This document shows positions 6,558 through 16,293 of a stretch of DNA of 64,000 bases, piece after piece. The notes below the pieces were generated by a model. That model was given only the letters and a program-made list of their open reading frames with translations, had not been told where the DNA came from and did not search any database. Made by a program: the position numbers and the translations under genes. Source of the DNA: Phenylobacterium sp. (GTDB lineage Bacteria; Pseudomonadota; Alphaproteobacteria; Caulobacterales; Caulobacteraceae); assembly GCF_030646615.1 (NCBI RefSeq), contig NZ_JAUSLG010000014.1:54404-118403 (forward strand), in the 5' to 3' direction. Numbering within the stretch: the first letter of the stretch is position 1; each line of letters starts with the position of its first letter.

Positions 6558-6796
6558 CAGAGGATAGCTCCCGTGTCTTGCCGCACCCAGGCGCTCCCGT
6601 TCGAGACCGCCAGGGTCGAAAGGTCGGCCACCAGGACCAGGGTCTGCGGCCAGGCCTTGGCCGGCGGCAGATCGGCGGCGTCGCAGGCGAAGATCCGCGT
6701 CGGCGCCCCGGGCTCACGCAGGACTCGCACCGCCTCCACCAGTTCGCCCACCAACGGCCGCAAGGCCGGTGGAACATCCGGGCCTACGGTCAGCAT
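6557..6796 (-). CDS. Small phage protein, unknown
   Basis: The 79-residue product, beginning MLTVGPDVPPALRPLVGELV, has a helical first half and a beta-rich second half ending SNGSAWVRQDTGAIL. That ending recalls the short beta segment often found at fibre attachment points. ATG 6796 overlaps the stop of the adaptor gene by 7 nt. Its place between adaptor and fibre genes makes a tail-assembly role likely, but no family is recognised. Confidence 0.5.
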   Translation of the reverse strand: MLTVGPDVPPALRPLVGELVEAVRVLREPGAPTRIFACDAADLPPAKAWPQTLVLVADLSTLAVSNGSAWVRQDTGAIL

Positions 6797-7413
6797 GTGA
6801 TCGCCTCCCGCCGCGGCAGGTCCGTGACCAGGGTCGCCATTCCGTGCCGCCGGGCGTCGGCGGCGCGGGCCTGGGCCAGCGCCATCTCAAACCGGGCGTT
6901 GAAGTGGCCGGCCATCTCCCCGTCCCGCAGATAGGGGCAGGCCTCGGCCAGGGCGGCGAACAGATAGAGGTCCGGGTGCTCGGCCAGGACCGCATTGCTC
7001 GGCGCCTCGGCGCCGAGCGCCAGCCGCCCCACCTGCCGCAACACGAAACTGGTCTCCTGATCGCAGGGCCGCTCCAGCACGATCGCTCGACCCTCCAGGC
7101 TCCAATAGTTTGGCCGGCCGCCCACATCGCTCCGCGGCAGCAGGCCGGCCGGGCGGTAGCGCATGGGCGCGCGCAACGCTCCGTCCTCCCGCCACAGGCC
7201 GAGCGCCTCGCGGCAGTCGGCCGGCAGGTCCAGGCTCCTCGCCCCGGGAGGCGCCACCAGACTGGCCTCGGACTCCATCACCGCCAGCCGTAGCTCGCGG
7301 TTCATCCGCGCCTCGGCCAGGGTGATGAAGTCGCCCGCCCGCCCGGCCAGGTCGCTCCGCTCCAGCCAGTCGGCCACGGCGGTCTTCAGGTCGTCATAGG
7401 TCATGAGCGCCAT
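6790..7413 (-). CDS. Phage head-tail adaptor (gp4/tail tubular A type)
   Basis: The 207-residue product, starting MALMTYDDLKTAVADWLERSD, has the helical N-terminus (GDFITLAEARMNRELRL) and central loop typical of podoviral adaptors that plug under the portal. The C-terminal helix carries many Ala, Arg and Glu residues. GGAGGAGGG just upstream of ATG 7413 is a strong Shine-Dalgarno. Position directly after the coat protein is as expected. Family assignment is from pattern recognition and order. Confidence 0.65.
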   Translation of the reverse strand: MALMTYDDLKTAVADWLERSDLAGRAGDFITLAEARMNRELRLAVMESEASLVAPPGARSLDLPADCREALGLWREDGALRAPMRYRPAGLLPRSDVGGRPNYWSLEGRAIVLERPCDQETSFVLRQVGRLALGAEAPSNAVLAEHPDLYLFAALAEACPYLRDGEMAGHFNARFEMALAQARAADARRHGMATLVTDLPRREAITC

Positions 7414-7505: not shown

Positions 7506-8702
7506 CTAGTTGTTGGCCAGGCGGCAGGCGAGCTGCGGGCGCAGGGTCTGGAAGCCATAGAGGACGTCCAGGCGGCAGGGGAACTTGTCGTTGTTGATGT
7601 CGTACTGCCGCACGATCCGCATCGACACGCCGTCGAAGACCTCACGGGCGGCGAAGTCCACCCCCCGCGGCATCACCATGTCGGCGGTGGCGAAGGCGAA
7701 GGCGCCCTTGTGATAGGCCATGGAGATCCCGTGTGCGGCCGCGCCGGTGCCGGCCACCTGGATCTGCATATTGTCCCCCGGCGCGTTCGACACGTTCTGC
7801 GCGGCGCCCGTGGTGATGATGGCCGGCGAGATCTGCAGGCTCGCCACCCCCGACCCATTGGAGCTGGCGTCGGCCCGAACCACGAACTGCTGCTGCACGC
7901 CCGTGGACTGCTTGGTCTCCGGATGCACCCGGAAGACGCCGGTGATGGTGAAGACGTCGCCGGCCTTCAGGATCGCGGAGCTGTTGGACCAGCCGTCGGT
8001 GGCCAGCGTCCCGCCGGTCTGACCGGCGCCGTTCACAAGCGGCGAGCCGGCCTTGGTCCCCACCGTGTGCGAGGGCCACAGCGTATTCTCCATGAAGTCG
8101 AAGCCGGCGCTGCGGCCCATGAAGCCTTCGCGGTACTGCTTGGAGATGCTGGCCTTGTCGTTGAACAGGCCCTTCAGGGCGTCCACCAGGTCCACATTGT
8201 CCTGGGTGTTCAGGTTGCAGGTCCGGCCGGCCAGGGGCGCCAGATTGTCCACCTGGATCTTCCGGCCCTGCAGGATCTTGGCGAAGCTGGCGGCCGCGCC
8301 CTGGTTGTTCACCTGGTTGTAGACGTCCTTGTACATGCCCATGGCGTCGGCCTCGATATTGGCCGCCAGCACGCTCATGGCCGGTTCGATGATCCGCTCG
8401 GAGAAGTCGTCCAGCGACAGCGTCAGGTCCACCGAGGTGAAGTTCAGGTCCACCCCCTTCTGGGTCTGCACCTTCAGCTCGACGCTGGTCTCGGTGGTGT
8501 CCTGGGCGTCGAGGGTCGGCCCGGTGCGCACCACATACTGGTTGGGCAGGCGCACCTTCAGGGTGTCGCCCACCTTGGCGCCCTGGCGTGCGAAGCTGTC
8601 GTCATACTCCCGCGTGATCGAGCCCACGAAGTTCAGCTTCTGGTGCAGCACACGCAGGGCCTCGCGGGTGACCGCGGTCGGGGAAAGCAGCGAATTGGCC
8701 AT
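7506..8702 (-). CDS. P22-type major coat protein
   Basis: This 398-residue protein begins MANSLLSPTAVTREALRVLHQ and continues GDTLKVRLPNQYVVRTG, the N-terminal pattern of the P22 coat protein (gene 5) family with the HK97 fold. Length is close to that of P22 gp5. It forms the icosahedral shell, assembled with the scaffold encoded upstream. Its codon use is well optimised and regular, as expected for a highly expressed virion gene. Hairpins stand on both sides of the gene, so it may be an independently regulated transcript segment. The cargo module at 8.9-10.3 kb separates it from the scaffold. Confidence 0.85.
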   Translation of the reverse strand: MANSLLSPTAVTREALRVLHQKLNFVGSITREYDDSFARQGAKVGDTLKVRLPNQYVVRTGPTLDAQDTTETSVELKVQTQKGVDLNFTSVDLTLSLDDFSERIIEPAMSVLAANIEADAMGMYKDVYNQVNNQGAAASFAKILQGRKIQVDNLAPLAGRTCNLNTQDNVDLVDALKGLFNDKASISKQYREGFMGRSAGFDFMENTLWPSHTVGTKAGSPLVNGAGQTGGTLATDGWSNSSAILKAGDVFTITGVFRVHPETKQSTGVQQQFVVRADASSNGSGVASLQISPAIITTGAAQNVSNAPGDNMQIQVAGTGAAAHGISMAYHKGAFAFATADMVMPRGVDFAAREVFDGVSMRIVRQYDINNDKFPCRLDVLYGFQTLRPQLACRLANN

Positions 8703-8861: not shown

Positions 8862-9272
8862 TTAGTCGACGAAGGTCACGCCACGCTCCGGCGCCAGGCG
8901 AACGCTGACAATATCCTTGAGCGCCAGCTCGCCGTCGAAGTCCTGGCCAGGGGCCGGGATGAACATGTTGACCACGTCCGGCCAGGTCCTGGGATCGATG
9001 CCCAGGGCGTCGCCCGCATAGCGTGGGCCGACCGCCACCATTTTCAGATCCTCGGGCGGCAGGCCGTCATAGAGGATCGGCGGATCCATCTCCATCAGCC
9101 ACCGCCCGCCATTCAGAGGCCGCACCAGCTCGCCGGGCCAGTCCTGCTCATCGCGATTGTCAACCTTGCGCAAGGTCAGGCAGGCCCGCCCCCAGACAGA
9201 CATCGGGACAGGCGTGTGAGGCGCCGGCTCACTCGGCTTCGAACGCCCGAACAGGCGACGGAACAGTTCCAA
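8862..9272 (-). CDS. Hypothetical protein in scaffold-coat cargo module
   Basis: A 136-residue soluble protein starting at TTG 9272. The start is chosen because GGAGG lies 5 nt upstream; the first ATG is 23 codons later and has no comparable site. The N-terminus (ELFRRLFGRSKPSEP) is basic and Pro-rich, followed by an apparently globular domain containing GGRWLMEMDPPILYDGLP. No family is recognised. It sits between the immunity-like gene and the coat gene, where P22-like phages normally have nothing, so it is probably part of an acquired cassette. It could be a second immunity protein or a virion decoration protein. Confidence 0.5.
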   Translation of the reverse strand: MELFRRLFGRSKPSEPAPHTPVPMSVWGRACLTLRKVDNRDEQDWPGELVRPLNGGRWLMEMDPPILYDGLPPEDLKMVAVGPRYAGDALGIDPRTWPDVVNMFIPAPGQDFDGELALKDIVSVRLAPERGVTFVD

Positions 9273-9310
9273 CCTGACCTCCTTGGAAACGGGTCGGCGA
9301 AGCTTCAGAC

Positions 9311-9338
9311 TTGCCTCGGGTGGAGACGCAGCTAAACT
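9311..9338 (+). promoter_or_regulatory. Candidate leaderless promoter of immunity-like gene
   Basis: TTGCCT (9311-9316) and TAAACT (9333-9338) are separated by 16 nt, and ATG 9346 lies 7 nt after the -10 box. Transcription would start at or next to the A of the ATG, with no room for a ribosome binding site. The promoter opposes the late operon, so the gene could be expressed in the lysogen. Confidence 0.45.
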
Positions 9339-9345
9339 AGAACAA

Positions 9346-9705
9346 ATGACGAACTACGGCAAACTTTCGGTTCAAGACGAGGGCTTCGTCTTCCAGGCGC
9401 CAAAGCGAGGCTGGTTCTGGCAGAAGCCGCCACCTCCCTTCTCCGCGGCCTTCGCGGCGATCGAAGAGATCGTCGCCCTCAAGCTCGACCTCATCACCAC
9501 CGACGAGGTGGTCTTCGACATCTGGCTCGACGACGGCCGCAGCGTGAGGCTTTGGGAAAGTGTTGAAGGCTTCGTCGAGCTGGACGCCGCCCTCGCCAAC
9601 CACCTGCCCCATTACTTCCGCGACTGGCGGGGGGTCGTGATTTTTCCGGCCTTCGAAGAAAACCGGACGATCATCTTTCGGCGGGAGACTGAGAATGCCA
9701 ACTAG
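9346..9705 (+). CDS. Immunity-protein-like gene, convergent with toxin-like gene
   Basis: The 119-residue protein has the run TTDEVVFDIWLDDGRSVRLW, a helix with VELDAALANHLP, then a Trp and a VIFPAFEENRTIIFRRE ending. This order resembles small immunity proteins found beside polymorphic toxins (recalled, not searched). It is on the opposite strand to the phage late genes and ends 15 nt from the end of the toxin-like gene. Start ATG 9346 is chosen over 9283 because the protein pattern begins at MTNYGKLSV and a promoter-like box ends just before it. Constitutive expression in the lysogen would protect the host; this is inference. Confidence 0.5.
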   Translation: MTNYGKLSVQDEGFVFQAPKRGWFWQKPPPPFSAAFAAIEEIVALKLDLITTDEVVFDIWLDDGRSVRLWESVEGFVELDAALANHLPHYFRDWRGVVIFPAFEENRTIIFRRETENAN

Positions 9706-9719
9706 TGGGCGCCCCCAAC

Positions 9720-10253
9720 TCAGAACTCGGGATTTACCCCCGACACGCGTGTGGTCCGCAACTGAGACGTCGGGTCTGGCACGATGACTTCGTCCCAACC
9801 GCCACGATTGGGACCAAGCGGCTGTGCAGGCCGAGTTTTGAAGTTCGTCAAATCGTGTGTGCGCCCTTGGATGACAAATCGTCCGCTGTTCTGAGGGGGC
9901 AGACCCGCATCGTCACGAAAATCAGGTGACCCGTCGGGCCTACGTCGCGTCCACGAATGGCCGTAAGGCAGAGCCTCATCACCGAAGACGCGATAGAGAG
10001 TTTGACCAATATAGGGCTCTCCACGCACCCGGCGGCCAGCGTTGATCAGACCGGCTGCCACGCGCGGAGCTGCGACCGCTGCGCCGCGGATAGCGGCCAC
10101 TCCACCACTGATGAAGTCGGCGGGTGAAGGGGCTTCGTCCACCTTCCCAGTGGCGATCCACCGGGCGGAATGCACAGCGCCATCGCTTTGGAATCGGGTC
10201 ACGGAGAAGGCTTCAGCGCCGTTGTTCCGGGTCTGTACGATCTGGGTCGTCAT
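9720..10253 (-). CDS. Polymorphic-toxin-like protein in phage late operon
   Basis: The C-terminal 90 residues carry LYRVFGDEALPYGHSWT, DFRDDAGLPPQNSGRFVIQG, GGWDEVIVPDP and a terminal RVSGVNPEF. This layout is seen at the C-terminus of large secreted or contact-dependent toxins. Arg, Ser-Trp-Thr and Glu could be an R-S-E ADP-ribosyltransferase triad, but that is only a hypothesis. The N-terminal 90 residues are Ala-rich and could be a packaging or adaptor segment. ATG 10253 has GGAG 3 nt upstream; ATG 10316 (TGATG overlap with the scaffold stop) is an alternative giving 21 more residues. An immunity-like gene converges on it. Confidence 0.55.
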   Translation of the reverse strand: MTTQIVQTRNNGAEAFSVTRFQSDGAVHSARWIATGKVDEAPSPADFISGGVAAIRGAAVAAPRVAAGLINAGRRVRGEPYIGQTLYRVFGDEALPYGHSWTRRRPDGSPDFRDDAGLPPQNSGRFVIQGRTHDLTNFKTRPAQPLGPNRGGWDEVIVPDPTSQLRTTRVSGVNPEF

Positions 10254-10315
10254 CGGCTCCAGAGATGCGCCCGGCGAACGTCGCCCCTGGGCGACGGGGT
10301 AAGCATGCCCCACCA

Positions 10316-11131
10316 TCACCGCCCCGCCATGGCCTGAGCATTCCTGCGACGCATCCATTCGGCCGCGCCCATGTCGTCGCGCACGGCGCTGGCCGGAGCC
10401 GAGCCGCCGCCCACCTGCACGGCGGGGCGCACCTGCATGGCCGGCGCCCGGGCCGGCGCACCGCCCATCTGCGGCGCCTGCGTCTGCGCCTGCAGCGCCG
10501 CCTCACCCTGCTGGGCCCGGTGCAGGATCATCCATAGCCGCGGATCGGCCACCTCGCGCAGCTCCTCCAGGGTGACGCCGAAGGCCTGGGCGTATTCCAC
10601 CAGCTTGGCCGCCACCTCCGGCGACCAGCCCTCGATCTGGCCGGCCAGGACCCGGCCGGTCTCTTCCAGCTCGATCCGCGCCCGCTCGCCGGCCGCAGCC
10701 CGGGCCATCTCGTCCTGCTGGGCCAGGGCCTGGCCATAGGCCTCGCGGGCCTGGGCGACGTCGTTCGCCTGCCCCCACAGCGCCTGGGCCAGCTGCGGGT
10801 CCTGCTGGCTCAGCGCCTGCCAGTCGACGCCCTCGAACTGCGCCAGCTGCTGCTCAAGCGCGATCAGCACCGCCCGGTCCTGCGCGCTGGCGCCGGCGAG
10901 CTCGGCCTCCAGCTCCATCATCTTCGCCCGCTCGGCCAAGGCCCGGCGCTCGGCCGCCACCGCCTGGGCGGCGCTCTCATGATCGATATTGGCCATCAGC
11001 TGCGCCTTCAGCGCCCGCGGCAGGCGGTAGAACTGCCCGCCGTGCTCGATCTCGTCGATGGCGTCAGCGTCCGCGCCGGGGCCAGACAGGCGCGGGTCGG
11101 CGCCGCCCAGATAGGTCGGGTCTTGCATCAT
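10316..11131 (-). CDS. Phage scaffolding protein
   Basis: A 271-residue, strongly helical protein rich in Ala, Gln and Glu, starting MMQDPTYLGGADPRL; the longer ORF-track extension is an artefact of the open frame. Regions such as AAQAVAAERRALAERAKMMELEAELA give the extended helix expected of a scaffold, and the basic C-terminus (EWMRRRNAQAMAGR) would be the coat-binding end, as in P22 gp8. It normally lies just before the coat gene; here a toxin-like cassette has been inserted between the two. The call is based on composition, length and position. Confidence 0.7.
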   Translation of the reverse strand: MMQDPTYLGGADPRLSGPGADADAIDEIEHGGQFYRLPRALKAQLMANIDHESAAQAVAAERRALAERAKMMELEAELAGASAQDRAVLIALEQQLAQFEGVDWQALSQQDPQLAQALWGQANDVAQAREAYGQALAQQDEMARAAAGERARIELEETGRVLAGQIEGWSPEVAAKLVEYAQAFGVTLEELREVADPRLWMILHRAQQGEAALQAQTQAPQMGGAPARAPAMQVRPAVQVGGGSAPASAVRDDMGAAEWMRRRNAQAMAGR

Positions 11132-12532: not shown

Positions 12533-14434
12533 TCACTCGGGCGCGCGCCCGGCGGCCAGGGCGCGCATCCGCTGCGTCTCGGCCTCGAAGGCGGCGATCT
12601 CCAGCTTCCGCAGCTCCAGCGCCTGGTCGCGCCCCATGGCCTCCAGCTTCTGATTGGCGCCCGCCAGGGCCTGGGACAGCTTCTCGATGGCCGCCCGGGC
12701 CTCGCCCAGCTCCGGCGCCTCGCCGCGCACCTGAGCCGGCAAAAGGCTCGAGAGCCGCTGGGCGATCTCATCGGCGCCGGGCCAATCCAGATTGCGCGCC
12801 AGCAGGTCCCCGATCACCGGCGCTGCGGCCGGATAGGCCTGGATCAGCTGGATCATCTGGGTCGCCGCCTCTTCCCGGCGGCTGGTGAAGCTGGGGCCGG
12901 CCCGCACCGTCAGGTCATACTTGCCGACGCTCAGATCATAGATCCGCCGCACCTCGCGCACCTGGCCCTGCGCATCGGCCTCGCGCACCGCCACGGGCTG
13001 GTTCACCTGCGCCAGCCTCGCCTCCCCGCTCGGCCCCAGCACGCGGACCACCCGCGGCGCAGCATAGACCTTGGGGATCAGGTCGATCAGGATTCGACCG
13101 GCGTGCCGGATCGCCCGGCTCAGATTGTCGATATAGTGGAAGGTGGAGACGTCCCCCTCCCGCTGGCGCGCCATGATCGCCCGGCCGCTGGTTTCATTCG
13201 ACCGCGCCCCCAGGCTGGCGTCATGCAGGCCCATGATGGCCTTCATGTCGTCGCTGGCGTTCAGCGCCTCCTGCAGCGCCCCGGCCGGCACCCCGGCGAA
13301 GGGCTGGCGCATGGGCGGCTCGGGGCCGTCATATTCCAGATAGGCGTGGGTCTGAACATTCGCGCTCGCCCACTTCTCCGCATCGGTCTCGAAGGCGCCC
13401 TTGCGCCCGATGAAGGGCGCCTTGGGCGCCAGCGCCACCAGCTCGGTGGTCGTGGTCCGCCAGTAGTTGAACATCCGCTGCGGGTCCTTGGCGTCGCGGA
13501 CCAGGCTGCGCAGCCGCCGCCGGCCATCGATCCGCAGTTCCTCGCCATAGACCGGCACGATGGGGATGAACCGCCCGGCCCATTCCACGGTCTCCAGCAC
13601 CTCCGCGCCGGTGACCACATGCTGCACCACGCGGTGGCTCGCCACCTCCCGCGGCGCGCCCACAATGCTGATGCCAAGCGCATCGAACAGACCCTTCTGC
13701 GCCTCATAGGCGGCAAGCTCGATCACCTGCCCGTCGCTCAGGGCCACGATCTTCCGGCGCACCGCCTCGCGCCGCCAGAACTCGGCCACGGTCACCCGAT
13801 CGCCGTCGCCCCAGGCCTCGGCCAGACCGCCATAGGCCGCCCCCGACCAGTCCACCGCTTCGGCGCCTTTCCAGCGCGCCTGGAAGGCGGCCCGCGGCAA
13901 GCTGTCGACCACAAACGCGGTGTTCCAGTCCGAGGAGTCGGCCGCCGTGGAGTCCGGGTCCCCATAGACGCTGAACGGATCGGCCACCCGCTCGATGACG
14001 ATGTCCTGCTCGAAACTGTCGTCCCGGGCATAGCGGGTGTTGATCCGGAAATAGCCGAAGCCGCAGGTGACGGCGAAATCCAGCGCCGTGTCATAGGCCA
14101 CCTCGGCGTCGCTCGACTGCTCGATATGGCGGATCAGCCCGTTGAAGATCTCAGCCGTCTGCGGGTCGGCGCCGTCGTCCACCGGATGGCAGGCGATGGC
14201 GGGCTTGTTCAGCCGCGCATCGTTGACCACCTGGCGGATGAAGGCCGGCAGCCGGTTGATGGTCAGGCAGGGCCGCCCGTCCAGCTCCCGGTCGCGCCGC
14301 ACCTTCTCGGGCCACTGTTCGCCCAGCCTGGCGAACCGGAGGTCATCGCGGGCCTCCTCGCGGATCTCGGCCTCCTGGGCCTGCACACGCTCGAACGCGT
14401 CGCGGGCGTCCCGCAGGATGTCGTCATGGGTCAT
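12533..14434 (-). CDS. P22-type portal protein
   Basis: This 633-residue protein starts MTHDDILRDARDAFERVQAQ and has the family hallmarks RLPAFIRQVVNDARLNKPAI, FAVTCGFGYFRI and FNYWRTTTTELVALAPKAPF. These match P22 gp1-like portals, which form the dodecameric DNA channel at one capsid vertex and dock the terminase. The length is near that of P22 gp1 without the long barrel extension. The C-terminal 100 residues are a long Ala/Glu/Gln-rich helix. It stands between the first cargo module and the small virion gene, on the late strand. Confidence 0.85.
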   Translation of the reverse strand: MTHDDILRDARDAFERVQAQEAEIREEARDDLRFARLGEQWPEKVRRDRELDGRPCLTINRLPAFIRQVVNDARLNKPAIACHPVDDGADPQTAEIFNGLIRHIEQSSDAEVAYDTALDFAVTCGFGYFRINTRYARDDSFEQDIVIERVADPFSVYGDPDSTAADSSDWNTAFVVDSLPRAAFQARWKGAEAVDWSGAAYGGLAEAWGDGDRVTVAEFWRREAVRRKIVALSDGQVIELAAYEAQKGLFDALGISIVGAPREVASHRVVQHVVTGAEVLETVEWAGRFIPIVPVYGEELRIDGRRRLRSLVRDAKDPQRMFNYWRTTTTELVALAPKAPFIGRKGAFETDAEKWASANVQTHAYLEYDGPEPPMRQPFAGVPAGALQEALNASDDMKAIMGLHDASLGARSNETSGRAIMARQREGDVSTFHYIDNLSRAIRHAGRILIDLIPKVYAAPRVVRVLGPSGEARLAQVNQPVAVREADAQGQVREVRRIYDLSVGKYDLTVRAGPSFTSRREEAATQMIQLIQAYPAAAPVIGDLLARNLDWPGADEIAQRLSSLLPAQVRGEAPELGEARAAIEKLSQALAGANQKLEAMGRDQALELRKLEIAAFEAETQRMRALAAGRAPE

Positions 14435-14509: not shown

Positions 14510-15082
14510 TTAGTCCGCCGTCTTCACGAACGCTGCACCATCCCAGGCGAAGGCCTCGTCCTCGCCGTCCGCGGCCTTCACCACCAGGGATGGCGGGCTA
14601 TTGGCCTCAGCCTCATGCACCGCCAGGGACCTCCCGGGCAGCGCCGTCATCGGCCGGCCCGGCGCCAGCATCACTGGCTCGCGGCCCGCCGGAAACGCAT
14701 AGATCGCGAAACTCTCATAGGCTTCGTCCAACAGGATGGCCGCCTGGTCCTCACGCCCGTCGCCATCGAAGTCCGCCCGCACCGCCAGCCGCTGATAGTG
14801 GTCGAGCGCCTTCATCCAGGGAGGATCGTCTCCATAGATCGGCATCAGGTCCGCCGTCGTCCGGAAGACCCAACCGTCCGGCGGGATCACTGTCAGGCGC
14901 GGCATGTGACAGTCCAGTCGGCTCCGAACGCCACCATGGTCGCGGCAGCGCTCCCCGTACTCGAAAGCGCGGCCATTGCAGCCGACAACACAGGAGCCCA
15001 TCAGCAAAACGACCATCACGACTGACGCGAGCAGGCCTCTCAGCAGCCGCCAAGTGGGAAAGGGAGGCGGCTCGATCGTCAT
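14510..15082 (-). CDS. Predicted lipoprotein with FG-GAP-like motif, cargo module 1
   Basis: A 190-residue protein with a hydrophobic N-terminal segment (LLRGLLASVVMVVLLMGSC) followed by VVGC, a lipobox. The mature part contains DFDGDGREDQAAILLDE, a DxDGDGxxD calcium-loop/FG-GAP-like motif, then a strand FAIYAF. It shares this motif order with the adjacent gene at 15079-15633, so the two look like diverged duplicates. ATG 15082 overlaps the previous stop in ATGA. Lying downstream of a toxin-like gene, it may be a periplasmic immunity protein; a surface-exclusion lipoprotein is another possibility. Confidence 0.5.
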   Translation of the reverse strand: MTIEPPPFPTWRLLRGLLASVVMVVLLMGSCVVGCNGRAFEYGERCRDHGGVRSRLDCHMPRLTVIPPDGWVFRTTADLMPIYGDDPPWMKALDHYQRLAVRADFDGDGREDQAAILLDEAYESFAIYAFPAGREPVMLAPGRPMTALPGRSLAVHEAEANSPPSLVVKAADGEDEAFAWDGAAFVKTAD

Positions 15083-15633
15083 GACGCCACCTCGACCAGG
15101 CGGCCTTCCGCCCAGGTGTAAGTGGTGTCCTGGGCCCTCCAGTCGATCCTCTGCCGCAAAGTGAAGCTCGCCGCCGCAGCGGAGGACGGCGCCGGCTTGT
15201 TAAATTCCACGGACACCTCATCCACCTCAGCGATGGGCCGCGCCTCGGTCAGCGCACGGGCCGCATCCCCGGAGAAATCATCCTTGGCGAAGAAGGCGAA
15301 GACACGGAACTGGGTCAGCGTCGGGTCCACAAGGACCGCGACCGCATCGCCTTCGCCGTCGCCGTCGAGATCGGCCCCGGACGCTGTGAGCCGCCCCCAG
15401 TCATGAGCCACGTCCTTGACCGCCGCCAACTCCGCGGCCTGCACGCTCTGCCAGCCGCGCGGCGTGCTCTGGCGCGCGCCGATGATGTAGCAGAGGCCAT
15501 CTTCCCAATAGCCAGCCTGGTCATTGCAGCCGTCACCGATCCAGAAGCCGCCGGTGGCGTAGCCGCAGCTGCCGGCGCTCAGCATCGCCGCCCCTGCCGC
15601 CACCCATCGCCACTGCCGCCACGTCCAAGCCAT
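15079..15633 (-). CDS. Exported protein with FG-GAP-like motif, paralogue of neighbour
   Basis: The 184-residue product begins MAWTWRQWRWVAAGAAMLSAGSC: a basic/aromatic start and hydrophobic stretch ending at a Cys, so an exported, perhaps lipidated protein. The mature region carries GADLDGDGEGDAVAVLVD followed by FRVFAFF, the same layout as the product of 14510-15082. ATG 15633 was chosen over the upstream TTG 15657, though its ribosome site is weak. It lies between the toxin-like gene and its paralogue, which fits a toxin plus duplicated immunity arrangement; this is inferred from order and export only. Confidence 0.5.
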   Translation of the reverse strand: MAWTWRQWRWVAAGAAMLSAGSCGYATGGFWIGDGCNDQAGYWEDGLCYIIGARQSTPRGWQSVQAAELAAVKDVAHDWGRLTASGADLDGDGEGDAVAVLVDPTLTQFRVFAFFAKDDFSGDAARALTEARPIAEVDEVSVEFNKPAPSSAAAASFTLRQRIDWRAQDTTYTWAEGRLVEVAS

Positions 15634-15717: not shown

Positions 15718-16293
15718 CTATCGGTAGCGCTGCGGGAGAACGACCCAGCTTTTCATCAAGTCCTTACAGCCCTCGTAGCACTGGCCGCCGGCGCTACCCA
15801 CTCGCCGTCCCTGGCGGTTTGCCTCTCGGTCGGCCTCTTCGGCGCCGCCCTTTGTCGTGTACTCGTCGATAAACTCCTTCGCGTTGTCACTTGCCCAGCC
15901 GGCGGTTGCCTCCGCGACAGGCCCCGCCTGAGCGGCCTGGCAGTTGGCTCGACAATGAAAGTACTTATCCCGGTCTGAGTATTCCGTTTTTGGAACCGTC
16001 GGCGGTCGACTGGCCTCGACGGCTGCCTTCGAAGCCGGAACATTCGCCCAGTTCCCCGCCAAGGCCGCGAAGGCGACACCTAATTGGGCCGCCGCCGGCA
16101 TGCCACCTCGGCCGTAGCCGGGTCGCAGGCCCTGCGCGGGCTCGCCGTATCCGTCGGTCGCGAGACCCGAGGCGCCGTTTAGCCGCTGCACCTCCGCGTC
16201 CGTTCCCAGAACGCGTCGCAGCCCATCGCTCACCCACCCCGGCAGGCCAAGATCGTCGAAACGCTTCGCCATCTTCTTCTCCGTCTCCATCAT
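15718..16293 (-). CDS. Toxin-like protein with Cys-rich C-terminal domain, cargo module 1
   Basis: This 191-residue protein follows the large terminase with a TGATG overlap. The C-terminal 85 residues contain DKYFHCRANCQAAQAGP, an acidic helix, then a REANRQGRRVGSAGG segment and two further cysteines (QCYEGC). A YFHCxANC beginning with a distal Cys pair resembles a C-terminal domain found on RHS/contact-dependent polymorphic toxins; its activity is not known to me. The first 100 residues are Gly/Ala-rich. GTG 16296 or ATG 16269 are other possible starts. Two exported proteins follow and are immunity candidates. Confidence 0.5.
   Translation of the reverse strand: MMETEKKMAKRFDDLGLPGWVSDGLRRVLGTDAEVQRLNGASGLATDGYGEPAQGLRPGYGRGGMPAAAQLGVAFAALAGNWANVPASKAAVEASRPPTVPKTEYSDRDKYFHCRANCQAAQAGPVAEATAGWASDNAKEFIDEYTTKGGAEEADREANRQGRRVGSAGGQCYEGCKDLMKSWVVLPQRYR

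Follow-up and report, generated by a model that had tools for sequence, protein, structure and literature searches.

A hypervariable slot for toxin-like genes and their candidate partners in P22-like prophages of Caulobacteraceae

Why do three genes separate the scaffold gene from the coat gene in a P22-like prophage of Phenylobacterium? The prophage lies in a 64,000-nucleotide stretch of DNA from Phenylobacterium sp. (contig NZ_JAUSLG010000014.1, positions 54,404 to 118,403; hereafter, the window). The three genes are a polymorphic-toxin-like gene on the minus strand (9720..10316), a gene on the plus strand that converges on it (F2, 9346..9705), and another gene on the minus strand (F5, 8862..9272). 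Comparisons of related sequences support the view that P22-like prophages of Caulobacteraceae, including those of Phenylobacterium, have a hypervariable slot for toxin/partner modules at this locus. We consider it likely that the window carries one allele of this cargo slot, with a polymorphic toxin tip that would be made late and would act as an antibacterial effector, F5 as the likelier cognate immunity gene, and F2 as an additional or leftover one.

A toxin-like gene behind the scaffold gene

The C-terminal part of the toxin-like protein is a toxin-tip domain (9720..10016, minus strand) with the motifs YR..G, G.SW, LP..N.GRF, GG..E, and GVNPEF. According to tblastn and BLASTP, residues 80-177 (in the numbering of a 177-amino-acid protein) match the C terminus of an RHS protein from a plasmid of Aliiroseovarius crassostreae (43% identity, E = 2e-14), so this end of the protein is homologous to known polymorphic-toxin tips. 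The domain is also present in two further alphaproteobacterial genomes: in one, it terminates an RHS core, and in the other, it is in an open reading frame (ORF) of 115 amino acids that is followed by a small gene. The window's domain is 40-47% identical to its distant homologs, and an alignment of four proteins (A4) has 23 invariant columns, which include the Y-R, the S-W, an N, and an E. The original prediction had called this C terminus polymorphic-toxin-like because of such motifs, and it was right to do so: the motifs lie in a domain with real homologs (RHS tips), beyond what chance would give. The Aliiroseovarius plasmid (L002:1928-8680; survey loci are numbered with an L) encodes tandem orphan RHS tips and small genes, including an ADP-ribosyltransferase (ART) with the HYD1 signature as well as the relative of the window's toxin. 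We found no match to the toxin tip among phage records or in a first scan of genome contigs, and scans of viral contigs with the toxin tip (alignments A3 and A4) or with F2 found none either.

Across the four sequences, the R of YRV, the S of SW, and the E of GG..E are invariant and might be catalytic. Because their order and spacing resemble those of the R-S-E ADP-ribosyltransferases, the domain could conceivably have ART-like activity. Profile searches against Pfam and the PDB gave no match to an ART fold or family, and we use "ART-like" as a label only.

The toxin-like protein would have 198 amino acids if translation begins at position 10316, with an ATG that overlaps the stop codon of the scaffold gene (TGATG), or 177 if it begins at the ATG at 10253. 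About 30 slot proteins from related loci begin between -4 and +2 nucleotides from the scaffold stop, so the start at 10316 is the most likely one. Translation of the toxin is probably coupled to that of the scaffolding protein, and we expect the toxin to be produced late in the phage's cycle. Most likely, it would serve as an antibacterial effector, either set free at lysis or brought into a neighboring cell by the virion. Or the cargo might act on the infected cell itself, by superinfection exclusion, by controlling lysis and lysogeny, or as a toxin-antitoxin stabilizer; MuF toxins have been proposed to affect the lysis-lysogeny decision (PMC5576092). We think that such a role is unlikely, since the late structural position and the coupling to the scaffold imply expression just before lysis, and since toxin tips of this kind are common to exported RHS proteins.

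The genes around the insert are of the P22 type, in the order portal, scaffold, coat, and all of them are on the minus strand, with strong matches to Pfam and PHROG. The scaffold gene (10316..11131, in an ORF that extends to 11440) matches the PHROG for head scaffolding proteins (1.9e-22), the coat gene (7506..8702) matches P22_CoatProtein in Pfam (5.7e-36), and the portal gene (12533-14434) matches P22_portal (1.5e-196). The adaptor gene is at 6790-7413. These matches bear out the scaffold and coat assignments of the original prediction, and the toxin-like gene and the convergent gene at 9346-9705 are both where it placed them. It did not list F5, a second candidate partner between the toxin and the coat gene that is absent from most relatives. 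The G+C content of the insert is about 60%, as compared to about 70% in the flanks. Cultured phages with similar coat proteins are at most 43% identical.

Slot contents in related phages

To survey the slot, we used a coat-protein alignment, which led us to fetch 48 loci from genomes and 80 loci from viral contigs. Scaffold and coat genes were both detected at 114 of these loci (with a few duplicates among them). Half of the scaffold-coat junctions (57/114) hold 300-3100 bp, and the others are short. The expectation that scaffold and coat genes are normally adjacent is therefore correct for about half of the relatives, in which they are adjacent or nearly so, but not for the remainder.

Even phages whose coat proteins are at least 96% identical differ in slot content: the ART-like toxin in the window, a glycine-zipper gene in L010 and L005, a remnant of the toxin in L003, and only about 100-150 bp in L011, L012, L013, and L059. 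L003 retains F5 and, from the toxin, just 9 codons at the start and ~27 at the end, having lost the toxin's core and F2. In L010, an in-frame stop interrupts that phage's own toxin. More broadly, the slots contain unrelated types of toxin-like genes: Ntox44, DUF6973-like, YDDG/SNSN, glycine-zipper, and several RHS-like tails. Ntox44 (PF15607) is above the Pfam cut-off in two slots (L076, 1.9e-12, and L088, 2e-7), and the DUF6973-like type is slightly under it (6e-6). The YDDG toxin had no match among phages or plasmids. In literature searches that were confined to open-licence papers, we found no description of the slot.

Breakage or deletion is frequent among related copies of the toxin-like genes (L003, L010, L087, and L099), as it might be if the window's gene were a passenger without function or a moron in decay. 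This is very unlikely, we believe: the window's reading frame is intact, its C-terminal domain is conserved in its distant homologs as described above, and many unrelated toxin types recur in the same slot.

We ran hidden Markov models (HMMs) for the toxin and partner types over every reading frame. The resulting table is nearly block-diagonal: DUF6973-like toxins were accompanied by partner F1 in 13/13 cases, glycine-zipper toxins by F2 in 4/5, Ntox44 by F6 in 3/3, the ART-like toxin by F5 in 2/2, and YDDG toxins by F4 in 7/18. A convergent multi-transmembrane protein follows every scaffold-coat YDDG toxin that we checked (13 loci), including loci that the F4 HMM missed, and the lone YDDG-F6 entry (L060) is due to two adjacent modules that flank the scaffold gene. 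Partners also occur without an intact toxin, in L003, L027, L060, L063, and L078. Given the logic of toxins and immunity, it is expected that partners would outlive deleted or broken toxins. Because of the type-specific pairing and the surviving partners, we infer that the partner genes would protect lysogens and sister cells.

Many of the slot toxins have a motif near their start, [LMI][STKP]..[DEA]...[LV]..AP[RKT]. In a search space of about 1.8 million residues (the translation of all frames), we counted 21 occurrences in slots, all but one of them no more than 164 bp from the scaffold stop, and three elsewhere, and shuffled sequences yield about 2 hits. In the sibling slots, though not in the window's toxin, a shared N terminus is joined to exchangeable C-terminal domains. 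Two of the three outside hits, in L018 and L031, are DUF6973-like toxins that lie behind the coat gene, which is independent confirmation of the motif, though the pattern was written from slot sequences. The motif might have a role in packaging or in mimicry of the scaffold. A more specific scenario, which we offer only tentatively, is that capsids of the Caulobacteraceae P22-like prophages deliver the cargo: an N-terminal tag (L[ST]xx[DE]xxxLxxAP[RK]) would load toxins that are translated from the scaffold stop into the procapsid, with the scaffold or in place of it, while modules would be swapped at several junctions of the late operon and old immunity genes would be kept as shields. The N terminus of F2 in the window looked like a mimic of the cargo motif, and we set this aside: it is a single hit to the regular expression and is not in other F2 proteins.

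Similar modules are found at other places in the structural operon. Directly behind the coat gene, there are DUF6973-like toxins with F1 partners (L018:4280-4849, L031:7177-7710, and L035:7259-7522). Upstream of the scaffold gene, there are toxin/partner modules of the Ntox44 and F6, DUF6973-like and F1, or YDDG and F4 types (L016:2386-3655, L062:3000-4222, L065:460-1927, and L095:1-818). In L057, a glycine-zipper match likewise lies ahead of the scaffold gene. The isolate Phenylobacterium kunshanense BUT-10 (L029) has a module of the DUF6973-like and F1 type. Other mobile genes are present in two slots, namely an HNH-like protein (L108:5488-5856) and a transposase-like fragment (L090:4598-4870), so the junction also draws unrelated insertions.

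The window itself has a second toxin-like module, between the terminase and portal genes. Its toxin-like gene (15718..16293, minus strand, 191 amino acids) has a SAA-like domain (Pfam SAA, 1.9e-9, over the cut-off), and its ATG overlaps the stop codon of an upstream terminase-like ORF (TGATG). Two lipoprotein-like partners are on the same strand. Partner A (15079..15585) is conserved in L010, L011, L012, L013, and L059. Partner B (14510..15082), which contains DFDGDGREDQA, is also conserved in relatives and is 30% identical (8e-9) to a protein from the scaffold-coat slot of L016. Homologs of the SAA-like toxin occur along with both partners in L012 and L013, and in L011, the same two partners accompany a different toxin tail, which is RHS-like and of the nuclease type.

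Which gene is the immunity gene?

The original prediction considered F2 to be the dedicated immunity gene of the window's toxin, with its own promoter in the lysogen, which would leave F5 as an unrelated phage gene. F2 encodes 119 amino acids and is convergent to the toxin, at a distance of 15 bp. The same convergent layout is found in the pairs of glycine-zipper genes with F2 and of YDDG toxins with membrane proteins. The reading frame of F2 is intact, purifying selection acts on it, and the region upstream of F2 is moderately conserved with L010 and L005. This conservation is all that speaks for the promoter-like box that the original prediction described: no sigma-70-type hit was found upstream of F2, and a Caulobacter-type box there scores 10/14, which hundreds of sites in the window equal, so it is not above chance.

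The family of F2 does not track this toxin. The window's F2 is 75-78% identical to the F2 beside the glycine-zipper gene in L005 and L010, in a phage whose coat is 97% identical, and it is about 30% identical to three more F2 proteins, all of which are convergent to glycine-zipper genes. Apart from the window, the family is beside glycine-zipper toxins (in 4/4 good matches, from four relatives) or alone in chromosomes, so F2 is not restricted to one type of toxin. Also, L003 lacks F2 and yet retains F5. For these reasons, we doubt that F2 is the dedicated immunity gene. F5 encodes 136 amino acids from a TTG start that is behind AGGAGGT, on the same strand as the toxin. It occurs at just two of the surveyed loci: the window, which has the ART-like toxin, and L003, which has the toxin's deletion remnant. 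Because F5 tracks the toxin and F2 pairs with another type of toxin, we regard F5, a candidate by position and co-occurrence, as likelier to be the cognate immunity gene. The original choice of F2 is probably not the right one, and F2 is probably an additional or leftover immunity gene that would act against glycine-zipper toxins from related phages.

The ratio of nonsynonymous to synonymous substitution rates (dN/dS) is 0.20 for F2 (as compared to L010) and 0.26 for F5 (as compared to L003), with 0.07-0.09 for the coat gene. Given these ratios, both F2 and F5 are held by selection even though the presumed toxin is absent from, or interrupted in, the phage that was compared. Having two small intact genes directly after the toxin might mean that both encode immunity proteins for this one toxin, with different mechanisms, as for the toxin Bxa of a Bacteroides prophage with Bsi and BAH. 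But neither F5 nor F2 has a recognizable hydrolase domain, and elsewhere F2 pairs with another type of toxin, so we find this alternative, though a real one, improbable.

As to what F2 is, its AlphaFold model is a small beta-rich domain (predicted local distance difference test, pLDDT, of 86). Its fold is predicted to be PH-like, and Foldseek found weak matches to PH domains only (TM ~0.45, E > 0.02). A profile comparison found no relation between F2 and the immunity proteins that neighbor the RHS homologs. In other Alphaproteobacteria, F2 homologs are single genes amid housekeeping genes (L152, L153, and L154); for example, in Niveispirillum, one is next to a serine-acetyltransferase-like gene. 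These chromosomal homologs are possibly shields against phage-borne toxins. We also had matches to F5 from other genomes of the same genus (E from 1e-4 to 1e-5), which turned out to be short stretches within unrelated longer proteins.

Several observations weigh against our account of the slot and its immunity genes. The HMM types and the N-terminal motif were derived from the same loci in which they were counted, and the window's toxin lacks the motif. No family in Pfam, NCBIfam, or PADLOC recognized the toxin, F2, or F5; nothing in PHROGs was significant; and the PDB held nothing of note. The AlphaFold model of the toxin from its single sequence (pLDDT 33) was unusable and was discarded. F5 is known from two loci only. 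By eye, it seemed to resemble the immunity proteins encoded next to the RHS homologs, and we dropped this idea since a profile comparison shows no relation. Finally, F2 homologs also occur in chromosomes without a toxin, and two different toxins occur with partners A and B of the second module, which shows that partners are not always tied to one toxin.

Comparison with known toxin systems

If our account is correct, then temperate podoviruses that are common in Phenylobacterium genomes harbor a sizeable reservoir of interchangeable antibacterial effectors and immunity genes, which are placed for possible packaging into capsids. Their type-specific pairs (13/13, 3/3, and 4/5) and the partners that outlive toxins would be a natural experiment in the co-evolution of toxins and immunity. 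They would also provide a short candidate packaging tag that is directly testable in P22-type particles.

The APSE phages of Hamiltonella also combine P22-like structural genes with variable toxins, in a haplotype-specific module, and these toxins are linked to the protection of aphids against parasitoid wasps (PMC8579659). In APSE, a lysis module apart from the virion genes contains the toxins, and the scaffold and capsid genes are adjacent, while the window's cargo is between scaffold and coat.

Polymorphic toxins of the RHS type (Zhang et al. 2012, PMC3482391) share the tip domain, as the C-terminal 100 residues of the window's toxin are homologous to RHS tips, and sibling slots hold Ntox44 and RHS-type tails. 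In contrast to RHS toxins, the window's protein is short and phage-borne, has no RHS repeats or secretion signal, and has partners that are unrelated to those beside the RHS homologs.

Bxa, like the window's toxin, is a prophage toxin with two adjacent small partner genes, and as in the sibling slots, a conserved N terminus goes with exchangeable toxin domains. For Bxa, the MuF-type N terminus, the ADP-ribosyltransferase activity, and immunity have been established (Alexei et al. 2024, PMC11699363), whereas we know the window's system from its sequence alone.

The closest known kind are the MuF toxins, which have variable C-terminal domains (including ADP-ribosyltransferases) and a small downstream ORF that presumably provides immunity, and for which delivery by the virion was proposed (Jamet et al. 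2017, PMC5576092). In both systems, toxin domains are encoded in the structural or packaging module of temperate tailed phages and small ORFs adjoin them, as F2 and F5 do in the window. But Pfam's MuF domain matched neither the window's toxin nor the slot toxins that we scanned; the cargo follows scaffold, coat, or terminase genes; and the phages are P22-like phages of Caulobacteraceae, whereas Firmicutes phages carry most of the MuF toxins whose domains are known (PMC5576092). Overall, the contents of the slot suggest a previously undescribed phage family with exchangeable weapons, and that phage-encoded polymorphic toxins would extend beyond the MuF family.
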